Origin: a virus | IMG/VR virus record: IMGVR_UViG_3300031594_000015 | Span: 1 to 23,989 of that record | Length of the DNA: 23,989 nucleotides | Strand: one strand, 5' to 3' | In this document: positions 1 to 8,757 of the stretch, one piece after another | Numbering within the stretch: the stretch's first letter is position 1 | Layout: the number at the start of each line of letters is the position of its first letter | Translations under genes and position numbers: made by a program | The notes under the pieces: generated by a model | What the model saw: only the letters and a program-made list of their open reading frames with translations | The model's database searches: none | Told to the model about the DNA's origin: nothing

Positions 1-3000
1 CTAATTGAACTTTAGATTTAACGTCTATTTGCCCAAGTACATCTTTAACCGCTTGCACGTTTTTAACGGCATCATCTGCAAAATAAAAATCATTATAGCC
101 TTCAGCTGCCTTGCCCATAATCCATCCGGCTTTTGCTTGAGCTGTACCATCACCTAAACCTGTTATATTTTTTAAAGGTATATTTATGCCGTTAGCTTCC
201 ATAAAAGCTTTTATAGGGCCGTCAGCACCTTGAGGTCTTGCGGTAAGTATAAAAACATCTTCAGTTCCACGAGCATCCGCTATTTTTTTAGCAACATCAA
301 ACAAAGGTCCTTTTTTTCCTTCAACTACTTTGCTAAATTCAGAAAAATCAAACTCAGCGCCTTCAGATTCTAAGCTTGCTGCTTGTTGTGCAAATTGAGT
401 TGCGTTTATTTGATTAATAGAACCATCAGGCATATTAACAATAACCATGCTTTTTGATTTTGCCAATGTATCATCAAAGTCAAATACTCTAATTTTTTTA
501 ACAGGAGCATCCAGTTTTCTTGCATTACCTAAAGCTTTATCTGTTTTTTCTAAAGCATTAATAGCTGTTTGAACAGTTATAGGCTTATCATACTTTATAG
601 CATTAGGTATTAAACCGCTATTACGTTTTGACGCTGCTACTTTGCCAGGCAGTAATTGTGTTTGTTGTATTTTAAATTGTTTTTTAGCTTGCTTTTGAGT
701 AATTTTACCTGTCAGCACTTGGTTTATAAGATCATTAGCTATTGCTTGAGTTTCAATTAAACCTACTTTTGAAATTTCAGATTTACCTAAAAAATATTCT
801 CCAACTGTAATTCCTTTTTCAAGAAGCATTAAAGAAAAAGGATTTACGTCGTTTTCTATTGAGTATCTAATATACCAAAGAGCTTCATTTACAGAATCTA
901 ACTTACCTTCTTTATTTAGCTGAAGTACTGTTTCGTAAAACTCATTAGCTTGATCTTGCTTTAAAGCAGAAGACATGTTTTCGTCTATGCTTCTTAGCAA
1001 TCCGCCTTGAGCCGCAGAGGGTTCAATTACTTCTGCAAACACCTGTTCAACATTTCCATTTTTTGCAGCATCCATTATTAGTCTTCCAATTCCAACGACT
1101 GGACTAGTATGCTCTTCAGTAACTTCTTCGTTTACATTTAAACTTAAATTTAAAGGATTTACTGTTGCAAACTTAAGAGGTATTAAGTACCTTAAAGGGT
1201 GGTTTTGATCTCTTGATCCATCTTTAAAAAATTGTTCAAAAACATAAGCTTTATCTTTATTCCCTTCAATAGCTAAAAACGCTTCAATGTCTAAAGCCAT
1301 ATTTTTAAGCATATCCATTCTTGCTTTGTTATCTGCTTTTAAAGTAGGTATAGCTTTGTCTATTGTTTTTTTAGATTGAAATCTAGATTTAGAATACGCA
1401 AGCCTTGTTATAAGTTTTTTAGCGTCTTTAAAACCTGGTACATACTTATCAAAAATAGACACTAAGCCATAAGTATGGGTTTGCTTTGTGCCAGTGTAAC
1501 CTTGTCTAAGATAAGGCCCATAAATAGGATTTGTTTCAAGAAAATCATTTACAACAGACGTAAACTCTTGCATTTCTTTAGATTCTAAATCTGTTACTTT
1601 TATTTTAACTTCTTTTCCTCTAGAAGTTGTTCTAGTGTCAATTTTTTTAGTAAGCTTAACTTCGTATGGTTTCTTTGATATTTCTCTAGCGGTATTAAAA
1701 TCAAGCCTTTTACTAGCCATAGCTTTATTCTTGCCGGCCGCAACATTTTGCTTAGCTTCTAAGCTTAAATCTGTGTCAGATCTTACAATTTCATTTGTAA
1801 CTAATTTACCGTACAAGCCAGCTATACCTTTTAAAGCCTGGGCTTGAGAAGATCTAGCGTCAAACCCTTCAGCTTTCTTACCTTTGACAATACCAAACGC
1901 TTCTAAAAATTGTGCCTTGTTTATTCCTTTATTTAAAACAAACGGAGCAAGCCCAGCGCCTTTACTAAGTCTAGCTTTTTTAGTATAAAATGCGTCAAGC
2001 AATCCTTTTGGCACGCCTGTGGAGGTGCCTAAGAGCTTCTCTGTTGCAGCTTCCACTACTGCGCCTTGTGGTAATATCTTTAATAATTTATCGGCGTTCT
2101 TATTGACAAATTGTTGAATAGCTGTTGCATCGCCTTTTGATAAATTAGCAGCGGGTACAGTAAGTTTTTTAACTGGTATACCAATTTCAGCTGCAATAAT
2201 TTCAGGAGCTAAGTCACCAAGTTTTTTAAACGTTAAATTTTTAGGATCGATGCCTTCAATCTTTTCCTGTATTTGTTCTTTGATCTTACTTACAGCATCA
2301 TTAGATATGAGTGAGCTAGGTTTTATTTTTCTTTTAGTAGTCTTTGTAGCAACTTCATTTTCAACCTCCTCAGCCATTACGCCTTTAGCTTCTGTAACGT
2401 CCACGGTAAACTCTTCACCTAAAACTCTTTGAGAAGCTTCAATAGCTCTAGCTGGTAAAAACTTATTTATATAAGCAGCTAAGGGCACGCTTGATTCTGG
2501 ATTGTATTCTTTTATTAAATCAAATATTCCACGCTTACCTGTTTCAATTTCGTCTGTTAAAAGTTGACGATCAAAGTTAGGTGCTTCACTTCTTTTTTCT
2601 ACTATTCTACTTACTATGGGCTTAAATTGTTTTATAATGTCAAAAGCTCCAGCTTCACCTTGTGTATCGTATATTTCTTGAACTTTAGTAGAAGCTATAG
2701 CGCCTGTGTCTCTTTTACTTTCTTTAGCTACGACATTTGTAACCTCAGCTTCTATATCTGTTGGAACTTTTACATCTATCTTAGCTCCTTTAGCCGCTGC
2801 TTTTTTTAAACCCTTAGATAGACCGGAATTTCTATGAACACTATCTGTGTAGTCTCTAACAAAATTTAAAACACTCTTGCCATCTTTAAATTTAACATTC
2901 ATACCCATAGCGCTTAACGTTCTACGTATGAAATCACCTATTTTCATAGCTGTTGTTTCGTTTATAGTAATATTACCTTCGCTTATACCATTACTAATAA

Positions 3001-5452
3001 GAACGATAGCTTCTTCCATCGTGTCAGCTTCAGATATTTTATCATCGTTAATGTATTGATCTAATTGAGATTGAAATGCTGGTGTCATTTTCACGTTAGG
3101 ATTTGACGTAAGCTCTCCGATTACATCTTTACCTAGTTTTACAGCAAGATTTGGATCTTTTTTAAAAGTTTCATATAATATAGCATGACCAACTTCATGA
3201 CCACCTCTACTAAGAACACCTAAAGAAGCATCTTCTCTAGTTACTTGTTTGTTTATTATTATAACTCTTTTATCAGGTTTACCTTTTCCTTGTTCTATAA
3301 CTACAAAAGTACCGTAGTTATCAGAGTTTTTTTCATCTATCACACCACCATCTTCCACTAGCTCAGCTATAGCTGCATCAACTTCTTCTTGTGTCTCAAG
3401 AGCTTTATAATCAGTACTGGCGTCTGCCGCTGCTGTTTTAGCGCCTTTGTCTATTTTGTCAGACCTATCTTTTATTATTATGTTGCCTAACTCTGCGTCT
3501 ATTTCACTAAGTCTATCTGACTCTGCTTTTGTTAAACTAGAATTATCTGCTTGTTTTATAGTATTTTTTAAATTTTTTTGCTCAATCATTAAGTCAACCA
3601 TAGCTGGTTGATTTTCTATGCTAATGCCTAAAGGTTTTAATTTATTTACAGATCCTTGAATATTTCTGTATCTTTCTTTTACTATATTAGCTTCTTCTAT
3701 CGTTTTTTCACCTTTAGAAACCTGCAAATTTAGTTCTGCATCTATTTTAACACCTCCATTAGGTATTGATGTAAAATCTAAGCCTTGAGGCATAATATCA
3801 CCTTCAAAAAGCTCTACAGCGTTGCTAACACCCGCTTCTTTTATTAATGATCTTTGTTTATTATTATTTATGCCTGTCTTAAGTATGTTAATACTATTAG
3901 AAGCGCCGCTAGGCCCTGCCCCAGAGACTGTTCCAATTATAGAGGCGTCGTAGATTTCTTGCATTGCTTCTTTAAAATCAACTTCTTTTCCTTGGATTAA
4001 AAAATTTGAAGCTTTTTCTATTGCTGTTTGTATTCCTTCTGTTAAGCCCTCTCCACCGCTATCTTTTATAAAGCCTAAAACATATTGTTTAAGGTTTTTT
4101 TCAATAATTTCTTTTGGTTGACTTTTAAAAGTGTTGAAAAAGTTTCTTGCTAAGCCTCCTGACCATCTTTCAAAAATACTATTACTAATCCCAACAACTG
4201 AATGATGAGCTAAATTTTGTAAACTTATTTTTCCGTTTCTTATTTTTTCTTCTAACTTTTTTCTTTTACTATCGTAATCTGGGTCTACTATTTTTAAGTT
4301 TATTAATTCATTGTAAGCTTTAGAGGCTTCGCTGTTTTCTTTAAATTCTCCTCCGGCTGCTGTAGAAACACCAATAATCCCTAATCCTCCAGGCACCGCA
4401 GCAACAGCCATATATGGAGCAGAAGCCGCTGCTTCTTTAGTTGTTCTAGTTAAAGCTCTAATGTATCCAGAAAAATCCCCTTGTTCTATAGCATCGCTAA
4501 ACATTTCTGTTACACCCATTTCGTATTGAAAAACTTCTTTATCTAATTTTTCTACGTACTCGTCTGTTTTGTCAGCAAGTTCTAAAGCTAATTCATCTAC
4601 ATTTTCACCTGTTAAGTTTTCAAAAATTGTTTTTGTATTGCTATATGCTGGAAGTATTAGTTTTTCACTAAAGTCTTTAAGTGTTCCAACAGGAGAGTTA
4701 GCAATAAAATTATTAATTTCTTTTGATTCGTTAGACGCGTCTTTAGCAAAAACAAATTTTCCTTCAATTTCATTTAACTCCTCTGGATATAAAACTCTCA
4801 TAGCTATTTTATTAGCAAAATCTTCCGCTCTTAAAGTTCCACTGAATATGTTTCCTGCAGTAGAGCTTATTCTTTTAACAGTATCAAGACTAAAAAACCC
4901 TGGGGCATTCTTATCATGCTCTCTTGCTCTATAATTGTCTTCTTCTTTAGAACGAATCAAAATTCTCATTTTGTTTTGAATTGCTTTTTCGTTTAATTCT
5001 ATCCCTTGTTCTTTAAGAATATTTTTAGCTTCAATTCTTTGTTCTTCGTAAGGAACAATATCTACATCAAAAGATTGAGAAAACTTACCCCCCAAGCGCT
5101 TTGTTTTTACAGAAGTATTTAAATCAATTGAGTTTACTTTTTCGTTTATTTTTAACGATTCTTCTTCAGGTATTAATAATTCCGATGAACCATCTTCCAG
5201 CGCTAAATCCGTAGGATCTACTGGTGCTTTTGCTTTCACTGGCTCCACACCTGCACCCGCTGCATCGCCCTCCGTCTTTACTGCTTCAAGAACTTCTTCT
5301 ACGGCTTCTCCCCCGTAAGTTATATCTTCAGCTGGTTGAGGCTTTTCTTCACCCCAATTATTGTCTATTTTCCATTGCTCAATAAGCTTTATTCTTGCCT
5401 CTCTATTTAATGGAGAAGGTAGTGAAGCTGCGTATTCTTCTAATTCGTTCAT
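1..5452 (-). CDS. Giant multidomain virion/ejected protein (HExxH peptidase + HAD domain), C-terminus cut by window edge
   Basis: An open frame runs from an ATG at 5452 to the window edge without a stop: 1817 codons, with the 3' end missing. Visible parts in order are an acidic N-terminus (to about 120); a Gly/Ala-rich hydrophobic segment at about 344-361 that could touch a membrane; a Gly/Glu motif GGEGLTEGIQ near 465-474; a charged, probably coiled stretch at about 630-680; HEVGH at 752-756 with candidate third ligands E813/E814; a long helical middle; and HAD motifs from D1658 to D1794. The gene starts 5 bases after the 366-aa gene, at the end of the tail module, where podoviruses place internal virion proteins. 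Phages are known to fuse peptidase, phosphatase and other effector domains in 'polyvalent' proteins delivered with the DNA. I infer the same role here. The frame is certain; the function rests on motifs. Confidence 0.85.
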   Translation of the reverse strand, partial: MNELEEYAASLPSPLNREARIKLIEQWKIDNNWGEEKPQPAEDITYGGEAVEEVLEAVKTEGDAAGAGVEPVKAKAPVDPTDLALEDGSSELLIPEEESLKINEKVNSIDLNTSVKTKRLGGKFSQSFDVDIVPYEEQRIEAKNILKEQGIELNEKAIQNKMRILIRSKEEDNYRAREHDKNAPGFFSLDTVKRISSTAGNIFSGTLRAEDFANKIAMRVLYPEELNEIEGKFVFAKDASNESKEINNFIANSPVGTLKDFSEKLILPAYSNTKTIFENLTGENVDELALELADKTDEYVEKLDKEVFQYEMGVTEMFSDAIEQGDFSGYIRALTRTTKEAAASAPYMAVAAVPGGLGIIGVSTAAGGEFKENSEASKAYNELINLKIVDPDYDSKRKKLEEKIRNGKISLQNLAHHSVVGISNSIFERWSGGLARNFFNTFKSQPKEIIEKNLKQYVLGFIKDSGGEGLTEGIQTAIEKASNFLIQGKEVDFKEAMQEIYDASIIGTVSGAGPSGASNSINILKTGINNNKQRSLIKEAGVSNAVELFEGDIMPQGLDFTSIPNGGVKIDAELNLQVSKGEKTIEEANIVKERYRNIQGSVNKLKPLGISIENQPAMVDLMIEQKNLKNTIKQADNSSLTKAESDRLSEIDAELGNIIIKDRSDKIDKGAKTAAADASTDYKALETQEEVDAAIAELVEDGGVIDEKNSDNYGTFVVIEQGKGKPDKRVIIINKQVTREDASLGVLSRGGHEVGHAILYETFKKDPNLAVKLGKDVIGELTSNPNVKMTPAFQSQLDQYINDDKISEADTMEEAIVLISNGISEGNITINETTAMKIGDFIRRTLSAMGMNVKFKDGKSVLNFVRDYTDSVHRNSGLSKGLKKAAAKGAKIDVKVPTDIEAEVTNVVAKESKRDTGAIASTKVQEIYDTQGEAGAFDIIKQFKPIVSRIVEKRSEAPNFDRQLLTDEIETGKRGIFDLIKEYNPESSVPLAAYINKFLPARAIEASQRVLGEEFTVDVTEAKGVMAEEVENEVATKTTKRKIKPSSLISNDAVSKIKEQIQEKIEGIDPKNLTFKKLGDLAPEIIAAEIGIPVKKLTVPAANLSKGDATAIQQFVNKNADKLLKILPQGAVVEAATEKLLGTSTGVPKGLLDAFYTKKARLSKGAGLAPFVLNKGINKAQFLEAFGIVKGKKAEGFDARSSQAQALKGIAGLYGKLVTNEIVRSDTDLSLEAKQNVAAGKNKAMASKRLDFNTAREISKKPYEVKLTKKIDTRTTSRGKEVKIKVTDLESKEMQEFTSVVNDFLETNPIYGPYLRQGYTGTKQTHTYGLVSIFDKYVPGFKDAKKLITRLAYSKSRFQSKKTIDKAIPTLKADNKARMDMLKNMALDIEAFLAIEGNKDKAYVFEQFFKDGSRDQNHPLRYLIPLKFATVNPLNLSLNVNEEVTEEHTSPVVGIGRLIMDAAKNGNVEQVFAEVIEPSAAQGGLLRSIDENMSSALKQDQANEFYETVLQLNKEGKLDSVNEALWYIRYSIENDVNPFSLMLLEKGITVGEYFLGKSEISKVGLIETQAIANDLINQVLTGKITQKQAKKQFKIQQTQLLPGKVAASKRNSGLIPNAIKYDKPITVQTAINALEKTDKALGNARKLDAPVKKIRVFDFDDTLAKSKSMVIVNMPDGSINQINATQFAQQAASLESEGAEFDFSEFSKVVEGKKGPLFDVAKKIADARGTEDVFILTARPQGADGPIKAFMEANGINIPLKNITGLGDGTAQAKAGWIMGKAAEGYNDFYFADDAVKNVQAVKDVLGQIDVKSKVQL
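2..499 (-). other. HAD-superfamily phosphatase domain within the giant protein
   Basis: Residues about 1652-1817 hold all four HAD motifs in order. Motif I is VFDFDDTLA with D1658 (nucleophile) and D1660 (acid/base). Motif II is ILTARP with T1737. Motif III is a Lys in AQAKAGW (K1774). Motif IV is YFADDA with D1793 and D1794. Spacing suits a small-cap HAD phosphatase of the polynucleotide-phosphatase or nucleotidase type. No catalytic residue is missing, so activity is plausible. Nothing in the sequence fixes the substrate. The domain reaches the window edge, so I cannot tell whether further domains follow. Confidence 0.8.
2963..3355 (-). other. Predicted zinc metallopeptidase domain within the giant protein
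   Basis: Residues about 700-830 contain the zinc-binding motif HEVGH, encoded at 3185-3199 (H752, E753, H756). It sits in a helix after a beta-rich lead-in ending VIIINKQVTREDASLGVLSRGG. About 57 residues later, the sequence MEEAIVLISNGI offers E813 or E814 as a gluzincin-like third ligand. HExxH alone occurs by chance, but the small Gly before the first His, the hydrophobic residues around the motif and the downstream acidic helix together fit a real minimal zincin. Substrate is unknown. It could mature virion proteins or cut host proteins after ejection. Confidence 0.6.
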
Positions 5453-5457
5453 TTAAT

Positions 5458-6558
5458 TTAATTTAAATTATTATCTTTTAAAAACTTTTGAGCCTTTGTT
5501 TTTTTAGCTTCTGCTAAATCAAAAACTGCTGCATCTTTTTTAACCGTTGGTAATTGGTTAGTAATAAATTGTTTTAGATAATTATTCATAAAGTATTCTT
5601 TGTATTTTGTTTCAAATAAAACTTTTTTGTCTTGCTGTAAAGGTAAATCTATTTCATAGCTCCAACTAGATGCTCCTGCGTTAGCGTTCTGAGCCATTTG
5701 AGCGTCCTCTTCAACACTTGTGCCTTTAGATATATAAACGTTCCAAGCTGCAATTACGTCTTGCTCAGAGCTCATTAAACCAGCTACTTCAGCATTTATA
5801 AATGGAGTAACTTTTTTTTCAATTTTATCAAGATCATACTTAAACACGTTTCTACCTTTGCCGTTTCCAATGTCTATAATCTCGTAATCAATTGAGCCAT
5901 CTGTGTTTATCATTACGTACTCATCAACAATTTTTGCCGCGGGTTTTAATTCCCCATTCTCACTTATCGCATTTGCAGCAAATATACCAACCTCAGTTAA
6001 AAGTCTTAGCATGTCCTTATTTATGTCAGGAGTAGATGCAATTAAGGAAGTGCCAGAAGCGGCTAATGAATTTAAAGCAGAGCTGTTAATAGTTAAAGGC
6101 ATGTAAAAAGCAGGGCCCACAAAAATTATTTGCTGAGAACCATCAGGCATAAGATCCAAATAAGCGTTATAGCCATCTGTTTTAGAATAACCAGGCTTAC
6201 CGTTCATCAAACTATTTGCAACCATGTATCTGTAATCGTTGTTTAAATCAAAGTTAGGCTCGTCTGTAATACCTAAATCTGCCATTAAAGAAGATAAAAA
6301 ATCTAAAGAAACTTGAGGAGCTTCTTCTAGTTGTTTTAATTGTGATAATTCCATAGAGCAATGCTCTGATTGGCACTTATTAGTTTCAACTGCTATTTTT
6401 AATTTTGCATATATTTTACCAGCATTTCTATAAGCGTTATCTAATAATTGAAAATTATAATCGCTTGCGCTAGATACAAATGTTTTACTATAAGCAATGG
6501 CGTTACTTTCGTTAAATTGTCTTAAGTAAAGGTTTTTAGATAAATTGTTGTCTTCCAT
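5458..6558 (-). CDS. Hypothetical virion-associated protein (366 aa)
   Basis: I do not recognise a family. The ATG at 6558 follows a run of A residues and no Shine-Dalgarno site. The protein is mixed alpha/beta and acidic, with a helical N-terminus (about 1-70), two nearby cysteines (CQSEHC, about 62-67), a hydrophobic central stretch (about 140-200) and a Lys-rich helical C-terminus. No signal peptide or membrane helix is evident. It lies between the 229-aa internal-type protein (15 bases upstream) and the giant multidomain protein (5 bases downstream), so it is probably co-translated with both. That position suggests an internal virion or cargo protein. The role is inferred from position only. 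Confidence 0.8.
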   Translation of the reverse strand: MEDNNLSKNLYLRQFNESNAIAYSKTFVSSASDYNFQLLDNAYRNAGKIYAKLKIAVETNKCQSEHCSMELSQLKQLEEAPQVSLDFLSSLMADLGITDEPNFDLNNDYRYMVANSLMNGKPGYSKTDGYNAYLDLMPDGSQQIIFVGPAFYMPLTINSSALNSLAASGTSLIASTPDINKDMLRLLTEVGIFAANAISENGELKPAAKIVDEYVMINTDGSIDYEIIDIGNGKGRNVFKYDLDKIEKKVTPFINAEVAGLMSSEQDVIAAWNVYISKGTSVEEDAQMAQNANAGASSWSYEIDLPLQQDKKVLFETKYKEYFMNNYLKQFITNQLPTVKKDAAVFDLAEAKKTKAQKFLKDNNLN

Positions 6559-6573
6559 TTTTTTTATTTAATA

Positions 6574-7263
6574 TTAACCAGCACCAAATCCGCCAGCACC
6601 TGCAACTCCGCTAAGAGCATCTGTAACCCCGCCAATCATGCCAAGAGTCGCGCTTGTTTGGTCCGCTTGAGACTGAGCTCTTACGGTTTCAGCCATGCCT
6701 AGTAAAGACGCTGTTCTATCTAATTGTTGTTGTTCTCTTTTTTCTTGTTGACCAAAAACAAAAGCACTACCTTCTACTTCTGCTTGTTGTAGTCTTTGTG
6801 CTTCAGACATTTGGCGTTGTTCCATTTGCTGTTCTCCTTGCGCTCTTTTATCTTCATTAGTTTTTTCCTGCTGTTCAATACTAGCAGCAACTCCTTGTTT
6901 AGATTTTAAAGCGGCTTGAGCTAGAGCGGTTGCTCCGCCTGCTCCAGAGCCAGTTGCTCTTATAGTGTCTAGTGTATTTGCTAAAGATATATCAGCTTCT
7001 TCAATTTTCATTTCAGCAGCACCTGTGGCTACTGATAAGTTTGCAAAAGGATTGCTTATTAAAGCACTTAAATCTTCAATGCCTTCATAAGGATTTATTA
7101 CATCTTGTCTATTAGCCTCAAGATGATTTAATTTATTTTGAAGTCTAGCTTTTTCTCTTTCTGCTGCTCTTGTAGCTTTTTTTGCTGCACGACCGGCAAA
7201 AATACCCCCAACTATAGATCCAGCTCCGCCAATTATACTTGCGGCTATTAATGGTATTGGCAT
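6574..7263 (-). CDS. Glycine/alanine-rich internal virion (ejection) protein-like, 229 aa
   Basis: The N-terminus is a Gly-rich hydrophobic segment (about residues 4-25, IAASIIGGAGSIVGGIFAG) followed by a strongly basic and then charged helix (AAKKATRAAEREKARLQNKL). Residues about 120-190 are Gln/Glu-rich and probably coiled-coil. The C-terminus is again glycine-rich (GGVTDALSGVAGAGGFGAG). This build, with amphipathic glycine ends flanking a helical rod, matches internal core proteins of podoviruses such as T7 gp14, which form part of the ejection conduit through the envelope. No sequence homology is claimed. The neighbours fit: a tail protein ends 12 bases upstream, and two cargo-like genes follow downstream. 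Confidence 0.75.
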   Translation of the reverse strand: MPIPLIAASIIGGAGSIVGGIFAGRAAKKATRAAEREKARLQNKLNHLEANRQDVINPYEGIEDLSALISNPFANLSVATGAAEMKIEEADISLANTLDTIRATGSGAGGATALAQAALKSKQGVAASIEQQEKTNEDKRAQGEQQMEQRQMSEAQRLQQAEVEGSAFVFGQQEKREQQQLDRTASLLGMAETVRAQSQADQTSATLGMIGGVTDALSGVAGAGGFGAG

Positions 7264-7275
7264 AATATTGTTTTT

Positions 7276-8757
7276 TTATTGTTCATATCCGTTGTTTCTT
7301 GTATATTTTGAACTAACAGAGAATAATTCTTTAACCCCTGTATTATCAGTTACTCCATCAGTTTGCATAACAACTGTTACATAATTACCTTTAATACCGC
7401 TAATGGAATCACCAAAAACAACCTCAGCTTCTGCCGCTGAAGAGTTGTTTATTAAATTAGCAACATAGGTATTTTCTTTTCTATTAAAGCCAGCATAGTT
7501 TATTGGTGGATTTAATACAGCAGGGTATTCGTTTCCGTAGTTATCAAAAGCTCCAGTGGTATAGCTTCTAATACTTGGAACTGGCGGAGTTGCTTCCATG
7601 TTGCCAGCCGCATCGTCTTGAGTAAATACCCAACCAGTACCATCTGGGTTTTCATAACTAGCTCCAGCTCCCACAGGATCTGAAGTTATACTATTTACTT
7701 GCCAGCCATTTGTTCCTTCATAACTAATAGTTTCAAAAGATTTACTTTGTTCTGGTTCTGGATTTAAAACAAAAGTTATAGAAGACTGATAAGTTGTATT
7801 ATAAAAACTTGTAGGTCTTGTAGTATAATGCTGCCAAAGCCCCGCATTTTTAAGACTATATGTTTGATTTCTTAAATTAAATATTTGATCCGGTTGATAA
7901 TTAAAAAAGCCAATCCATCCTTTAACCCTTTCGTCCCAAGACAATGTTTCATAACTTAAATCTTGTAATAGCACATTTTTTTGAATAGACACAACATACT
8001 GCTTATTGTATATATCATAACCACCTATTAGCCTGGCTGGAAATGAAGGAACTGAAAATTTATTTATATTATCTCTAAAAAAGTCAATCATACCAGCTGC
8101 CGATATTTCAGTTATACCGTCCATAGAAAGTCTTAATATTGCATTTTTATTTGCATCTGAAAAATATTTTTGATACCCATAAACAGCAAAGCTTTCCGGA
8201 TTAGTACTTATTCCATAATCCCCTGCATACGCCTGTACATCTCCAATGATTAAATTTGAAGCAGTTACAAGGCTTGATCCCTCGGCTGTGTAAATTGCAT
8301 CCTTGTCTATTAAAGCTCTACTTACTTTACTTTCTTGAAATATAATTAATCTGTTGTCTTCAGCATAAAGTTTTTGTATTGAGCCATTTGCTGGGTCTAC
8401 TGATTTAGTTATATTTTCTCCTATTGAAAATACATTAGTTCTATTTATACCTGTTCTAGAATTAAATATACCAGAGTATATTAATGAATTTATTCTGTTG
8501 GAAGCATTAGGTTCATCTTCAACTAAATAAGCTTTTACACCAAAATCTACGGTTGTATTATTATAACCCCCTCTAATTCTAGATTCTTCTATTGCCCAAT
8601 TCCCAAAGTCTGTTAAGTCAGACCCTGGTCTGCTATAACCGCCAATAGTTTGAGGTATACCAAATGAGCCATTCCACACTGCTTTTTCAGGTGGATTGCT
8701 TATAGTCTTTTTTAATATAAAAGTGTTAAAATATTTTACTTCTACTACTGCTCCCAT
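7276..8757 (-). CDS. Tail/muzzle-associated protein, propeller-like (493 aa)
   Basis: The protein is rich in beta strands, Asn, Tyr and Gly, as in podovirus tail tube or 'stabilisation' proteins. Residues about 125-245 show successive blade-like strands (KLYAEDNRLIIFQESKVSRA, then YAGDYGISTNPESFAVYG, then ILRLSMDGITEIS), as in a beta-propeller closing the portal channel. Residues about 255-330 continue the strand pattern, and the end (YVTVVMQTDG...ELFSVSSKY) resembles a small beta domain. It begins 39 bases after the 1506-aa tail gene, and the two may form one assembly or be halves of what other phages encode as one protein. The tail role is inferred from composition and position. Confidence 0.78.
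   Translation of the reverse strand: MGAVVEVKYFNTFILKKTISNPPEKAVWNGSFGIPQTIGGYSRPGSDLTDFGNWAIEESRIRGGYNNTTVDFGVKAYLVEDEPNASNRINSLIYSGIFNSRTGINRTNVFSIGENITKSVDPANGSIQKLYAEDNRLIIFQESKVSRALIDKDAIYTAEGSSLVTASNLIIGDVQAYAGDYGISTNPESFAVYGYQKYFSDANKNAILRLSMDGITEISAAGMIDFFRDNINKFSVPSFPARLIGGYDIYNKQYVVSIQKNVLLQDLSYETLSWDERVKGWIGFFNYQPDQIFNLRNQTYSLKNAGLWQHYTTRPTSFYNTTYQSSITFVLNPEPEQSKSFETISYEGTNGWQVNSITSDPVGAGASYENPDGTGWVFTQDDAAGNMEATPPVPSIRSYTTGAFDNYGNEYPAVLNPPINYAGFNRKENTYVANLINNSSAAEAEVVFGDSISGIKGNYVTVVMQTDGVTDNTGVKELFSVSSKYTRNNGYEQ

Follow-up and report, generated by a model that had tools for sequence, protein, structure and literature searches.

A giant candidate polyvalent protein of crAss-like-related phages combining predicted zincin, sigma2-like and HAD domains

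Polyvalent proteins, as the main text of Iyer et al. (2017, PMC5512222) describes them for phages and conjugative elements, are very large, multidomain proteins with a zincin metallopeptidase domain (MPTase) bearing an HEXXH motif and a helix-borne glutamate, and their delivery together with the DNA is predicted there. The words 'phosphatase', 'haloacid' and 'sigma' have zero occurrences in that main text. In phage phi-crAss001, the cargo proteins gp45-gp50 are virion-borne and have been proposed to be ejected, gp47, gp49 and gp50 being RNA-polymerase-related (Bayfield et al. 2023, PMC10172136). A third point of comparison is provided by the giant virion proteins of isolated phages, namely gp101 of phi40:1 and phi38:1 (Pervagoviridae), elemo gp18 and Panino CDS69, among which phi40:1 gp101 is annotated from experimental MS/MS and is 99.9% identical to its phi38:1 counterpart.

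The locus described here lies at one end of a linear IMG/VR fragment of 23,989 nt, the whole of which was analysed and is referred to below as the window. The gene at this end encodes a giant protein that we read, with a probability of roughly 0.6, as a polyvalent cargo protein of a crAss-like-related phage, in which a virion domain (N1), a processing zincin, an RNA-polymerase-binding sigma2-like module, a HAD phosphatase and a helical ejection C-terminus would be united; the host of this phage is probably a marine Bacteroidota. The features of the window on which this reading draws are the following.

2..5452, minus strand: giant polyvalent-type protein, residues 1-1,817, 3'-open at the contig end (open frame; full-length relative L002)
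3593..4555, minus strand: N1 domain, residues 300-620, presumed virion anchor, homologous to the isolates' giant virion proteins
2798..3385, minus strand: zincin-like metallopeptidase domain, residues 690-885 (alignment A2)
3185..3199, minus strand: HEVGH motif, residues 752-756
3011..3013, minus strand: putative third zinc ligand, Glu 814
2378..2704, minus strand: sigma-70 region-2-like domain, residues 917-1025
2..520, minus strand: HAD phosphatase-like domain, residues 1645-1817 (alignment A1)
467..481, minus strand: HAD motif I, DFDDT, residues 1658-1662
242..244, minus strand: HAD motif II, Thr 1737
131..133, minus strand: HAD motif III candidate, Lys 1774
71..76, minus strand: HAD motif IV, Asp-Asp 1793-1794
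7276..8757, minus strand: crAss-type muzzle protein (PF25729, E 4.5e-10)
6574..7263, minus strand: 229-aa protein with a weak likeness to T7 gp14 internal virion proteins (PF24072, E 0.027, below the cut-off)
5458..6558, minus strand: 366-aa protein immediately upstream of the giant, a conserved neighbour

An earlier note on this DNA had described an unbroken frame of at least 1817 aa closing a virion module, and both observations hold. The frame starts with ATG, runs uninterrupted over 1,817 aa and leaves the contig before a stop codon; the missing end could be seen in a full-length relative of 2,941 aa (L002:7256-16081), from which about 800 C-terminal residues are deduced to be absent from the window, the HAD sequence being essentially whole despite the contig end. 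The module reads TerL, portal, MCP, ring/head proteins, muzzle, 229-aa protein, 366-aa protein and, as the last gene, the giant. This order is largely kept in three long relatives, the 366-aa protein occupying the same place in G010 and G007 and being unmatched in G012. Family searches with the 366-aa protein gave no match, and it is possible that it represents a second cargo or ejection protein. Like the phi-crAss001 cargo genes, the giant gene lies downstream of that for the muzzle; no sequence similarity was found between the giant and crAss001 gp47, gp49 or gp50. Beyond the giant, the L002 contig carries (16235-19503) a DUF6321 gene, a small M15 peptidase, likely an endolysin, and then an opposite-strand gene resembling ribonucleotide reductase.

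The giant is probably built into the virion particle, as the homology of its N1 domain and the position of its gene support. The N1 profile matched elemo gp18 (5e-35), phi38:1 gp101 (1.6e-30) and Panino CDS69 (9.4e-30) with 94-112 bits, and shuffled and reversed decoys reached at most 15 bits; the genes of these three proteins are likewise the last of the same virion module. Elemo gp18 also shares the zincin with the giant (E 6.9e-10). In gp101 of phi40:1 and phi38:1, elemo gp18 and Panino CDS69, neither a HAD nor a sigma-like domain was detected, nor the conserved C-terminal one. The virion proteins crAss001 gp47 and phi14:2 gp76 contain HExxH motifs, HEAFH and HEIMH respectively (L094:1120-8145, L095:98-4363). 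The MW202828 giant of 3,859 aa (L092:741-12320) has two such motifs, and the conserved C-terminal domain matches it weakly (E 0.0015). The idea of polyvalent cargo packaged in the head, which the earlier note had put forward, gains from the MS/MS-detected homologue, the module position, the C-terminal fold discussed below and the presence of zincin and HAD in one chain; its description as an undescribed system was overstated, since the polyvalent class has been described and the giant appears to be a variant of it with a new domain combination.

The zinc-peptidase signature that had been noticed at HEVGH proved to be a family property. Among 60 dereplicated, aligned relatives, HExxH is present in 57 and the glutamate of the following helix in all 60, as in the MPTase of polyvalent proteins; in the remaining three, EExxH replaces HExxH and the first zinc ligand is lost. 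Pfam Peptidase_M78 matched eight of 56 members (best 5.9e-4), and hhalign aligned 19 Bacteroidota M78 proteins with the family over 65 columns at E 2e-6, where eight sibling domains gave 0.08-0.84; block shuffles reach 3.1e-5 in this comparison because the motif block is kept. In the predicted model, strands are followed by helices 460-474, with HEVGH, and 519-535, with the glutamate (model numbering), an order that agrees with the MPTase description in PMC5512222. A search of the zincin profile against PDB returned nothing significant. We consider residues 690-885 as a zincin-like domain whose homology appears to extend beyond the motif, and predict a peptidase activity for it.

Behind the zincin, residues about 917-1025 resemble region 2 of sigma-70 factors, the stretch 965-1005 corresponding to regions 2.2-2.4. 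This domain and the kinase insertion treated below were absent from the earlier note. By hhalign it matched 14 sigma factors from three MAGs at E 2.1e-6 to 3.5e-6 and still at 2e-5 when only the 45 most divergent members were used; the score of 46.8 compares with at most 12.7 in 150 column shuffles, at most 21.8 in 100 block shuffles and 14.9 for the reversed profile, and the eight sibling domains gave E 0.12-0.94. Likewise, a sigma HMM run with HMMER hit residues 928-1063 of the window protein (E 2.6e-4) as well as the equivalent position of many relatives, and PF04542 (Sigma70_r2) hit the giant of G013 (E 1.3e-4). An AlphaFold model, built with phage sequences only as input, gave 20 sigma factors among its best 50 Foldseek matches in PDB, including 8b3z, which holds the N-terminal domain of SigE (prob 0.96, TMt 0.65, 2.7 A); no E-value was significant (E<=0.001). 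The best PDB match of the 900-1125 profile was T4 gp55 (E 0.071), a late sigma factor that, like the domain of the giant, has a sigma2 without demonstrable region 4. T4 gp55 is a free, non-virion protein and in this respect differs from a module set in a giant virion protein. Since a region 4 in the giant is unsupported (E 0.066, not above decoys), we name the domain sigma2-like rather than a sigma factor, and predict from profiles and models that it binds RNA polymerase. In titles and abstracts of the literature outside subscription papers, nothing on point was found on sigma factors that are packaged in a virion or ejected from it.

A rival reading of the sigma2-like similarity is convergence, the domain being in that case a helical linker without RNA-polymerase binding. 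The lack of region 4, the rapid divergence of the domain and the Foldseek E-values speak for it; independent profile, HMMER and structure routes converge on the same place, and the shuffled, reversed and sibling-domain decoys are clean, so that we regard convergence as somewhat unlikely. A derivation of the domain from the phage's own stand-alone sigma factor is unsupported, as these factors align with it only at E 0.1.

The genomic context of transcription bears on what such a domain could do. Nine of 10 long relatives encode a separate sigma-70 factor of ~250 aa (L119-L127), and in three long relatives no gene related to the crAss-type vRNAP was found. A promoter-like motif of 31 nt with fixed spacing, TTACAAACAAAAT-N10-TGGATAAT, also written TACAAACAAAAT...TGGATAAT, stands 7-42 nt ahead of small genes, counted to their start codons; it occurs in 36 exact copies in 10 of 50 records, on one strand in each, with G007, G010, G008, G015 and others (L136-L139, L128-L131) as carriers and 95 stretches in IMG/VR. 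The variants CAGATAAT and TAGATAAT are found in particular lineages. The motif was absent from 61 Bacteroidota genomes and from seven isolates without a sigma2-like domain. The giant is encoded by 26 of 30 other motif-bearing contigs, a co-occurrence that may reflect mere common descent. In G007 the stand-alone sigma gene follows the last motif in the cluster at a distance of ~3 kb downstream, and the motif-bearing contig G135 holds a frameshifted or decayed copy of the giant with many in-frame stops (C1:13760-16661). A role of the sigma2-like domain in reading this motif is weakened by its variability, a poor fit to a promoter-reading function: even among phages sharing the motif it is often 20-35% identical. 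As the motif and the stand-alone sigma factor are conserved and the domain is divergent, the motif is more readily assigned to the stand-alone factor.

About 900 residues after HEVGH, as the earlier note had reported, the four HAD motifs follow (1658-1794), and the same spacing recurs in nearly all complete family members, which range from 2,353 to 3,353 aa. The two aspartates and the threonine of motif I, Thr 1737, Lys 1774 and the Asp-Asp pair are invariant in 49 sequences, as is Lys 1781. The HAD-clan family DUF2608 (PF11019) matched 44 of the 49 (best 2.6e-6); PF00702 (1.7e-4) and PF12710 (0.0041) were also matched. The predicted model alternates strands and helices at the motifs. In the structural search suggested in the earlier note, neither a clear zincin for the multi-domain model nor a HAD for the model of HAD plus C-terminus appeared among the Foldseek matches to PDB listed; for both models these matches stayed short of significance (E<=0.001), and the HAD profile found nothing significant in PDB. 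We assign residues 1645-1817 to a HAD domain with predicted phosphatase activity.

In a minority of relatives (L019, L038, L039, L042, L046, L068), a P-loop kinase of ~200 aa is inserted in the HAD domain after motif I; in L015, L017, L018 and others, the same region takes a shorter insert of ~46 aa. These kinases raise the alternative that nucleic-acid end healing is the main effector function, a HAD 3'-phosphatase, with the nested 5'-kinase in some members, repairing RNA or DNA broken by host nucleases at entry and the sigma-like part being merely a helical bundle. In agreement with this, AAA_33 was found in the giant of five of 20 records searched, always inside the HAD/giant frame and nowhere else, few parts of the protein are as conserved as the HAD, and the best PDB matches of the nested kinase are C. 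thermocellum Pnkp kinases listed as metallophosphoesterase (7e-4), ahead of T4 Pnkp (0.024) and zeta toxins (0.28-0.53). Such relatives resemble T4 and bacterial Pnkp in joining kinase and HAD phosphatase in one chain, but the kinase is nested rather than in tandem and no ligase partner was found, RNA ligase PF09414 being absent from the 20 records searched. The kinase is missing from most relatives and from the window giant, and the alternative leaves the sigma-family signals unexplained; we judge it unlikely.

The spread and conservation of the family are informative in their own right. A single IMG/VR scan with the C-terminal part as query retrieved 565 related viral loci, and the same part detected relatives on seven MAG contigs, of which three belong to Bacteroidota bins; tblastn searches of INPHARED with the giant and with the L002 relative returned zero matches. 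In the HMM search of the whole protein recommended in the earlier note, Pfam, PHROGs and NCBIfam produced chance-level matches only, none significant; the M78 and HAD-clan matches emerged among individual family members. In the family alignments, conservation peaks in the HAD domain and the C-terminus (alignment A5, mean column identity 63%), and the N-terminal half is highly variable. The conserved C-terminus has no Pfam match and its profile found nothing significant in PDB; its model, taken from L002, had matches in BFVD to proteins of the ART-PolyVal, LPD and MuF types and to a structural protein of a Tenacibaculum phage, which suggests the helical fold of polyvalent-type proteins.

This C-terminus also lends some weight to a mainly mechanical role, in which the giant would act as an ejection or scaffold protein forming a DNA-translocation channel and the zincin, sigma-like and HAD parts would be inherited modules of little enzymatic importance. 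Ejection proteins of the T7, P22 and N4 type are likewise giant and virion-borne, and the N-terminal half of the giant is highly variable. However, very divergent members of the family keep the catalytic residues of both HAD and zincin almost without exception, and we find this explanation quite improbable.

Compared with the L002 giant, residues 619-1817 of the window are 76% identical and the first ~600 residues have no significant BLASTP match. Over residues 1317-1817 there is not a single amino-acid change and 28 codons differ in DNA, which speaks for strong purifying selection or, alternatively, for a block that was exchanged recently. With ~98% DNA identity over these codons (window 2-1505) and ~71% in the upstream genes, the C-terminal half seems to have been exchanged recently. 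Chance motifs or a chimeric assembly, to which a contig ending within the gene and its near identity to another contig over the last 500 codons might point, have a negligible probability, since HExxH, Glu 814 and the HAD residues are conserved across the family, 74 complete homologues keep the same domain order, and the synonymous differences scattered across the block shared with L002 rule out a chimera.

Returning to the giant as polyvalent cargo, several effector-type domains in one chain and the C-terminal fold of its models liken it to the proteins of PMC5512222, and HAD and sigma-like domains and a conserved core of HAD plus C-terminus set it apart from those in the main text of that paper. 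In the sequence of events we propose, N1 would hold the giant in the particle, as its homology and position suggest, and the protein would exit with or before the DNA. The zincin might then cut the chain, either before packaging or in the host, freeing the parts behind it; the sigma2-like module may bind host RNA polymerase, displacing or mimicking the host sigma factor; the HAD phosphatase probably works on nucleic-acid ends or nucleotides, a substrate suggested by the polynucleotide-kinase-like domain that some relatives nest in it; and the conserved helical C-terminus beyond the window, similar to that of other polyvalent proteins, may serve ejection. A tentative idea, to which we give odds well below even, is that a large group of marine phages, in which no own RNA polymerase was detected, brings a sigma2-like module into the cell within a self-cleaving giant and so seizes host RNA polymerase at entry. 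If true, such a module would be an alternative to the whole polymerase of N4 and crAssphage or to the RNA-polymerase-modifying Alt of T4.

Taken together, these data describe a family of giants abundant in marine metagenomes, with its 565 related loci, and yet unmatched in INPHARED. They extend the repertoire of virion-borne effectors with a predicted phosphatase, in which some relatives nest a polynucleotide kinase, and with a sigma-like module, through which the giant may affect host transcription and nucleic acids from the start of infection. They also offer a testable hypothesis for how transcription could start in such phages without an injected polymerase, for which the promoter-like motif specific to these phages is at hand together with their stand-alone sigma factor.
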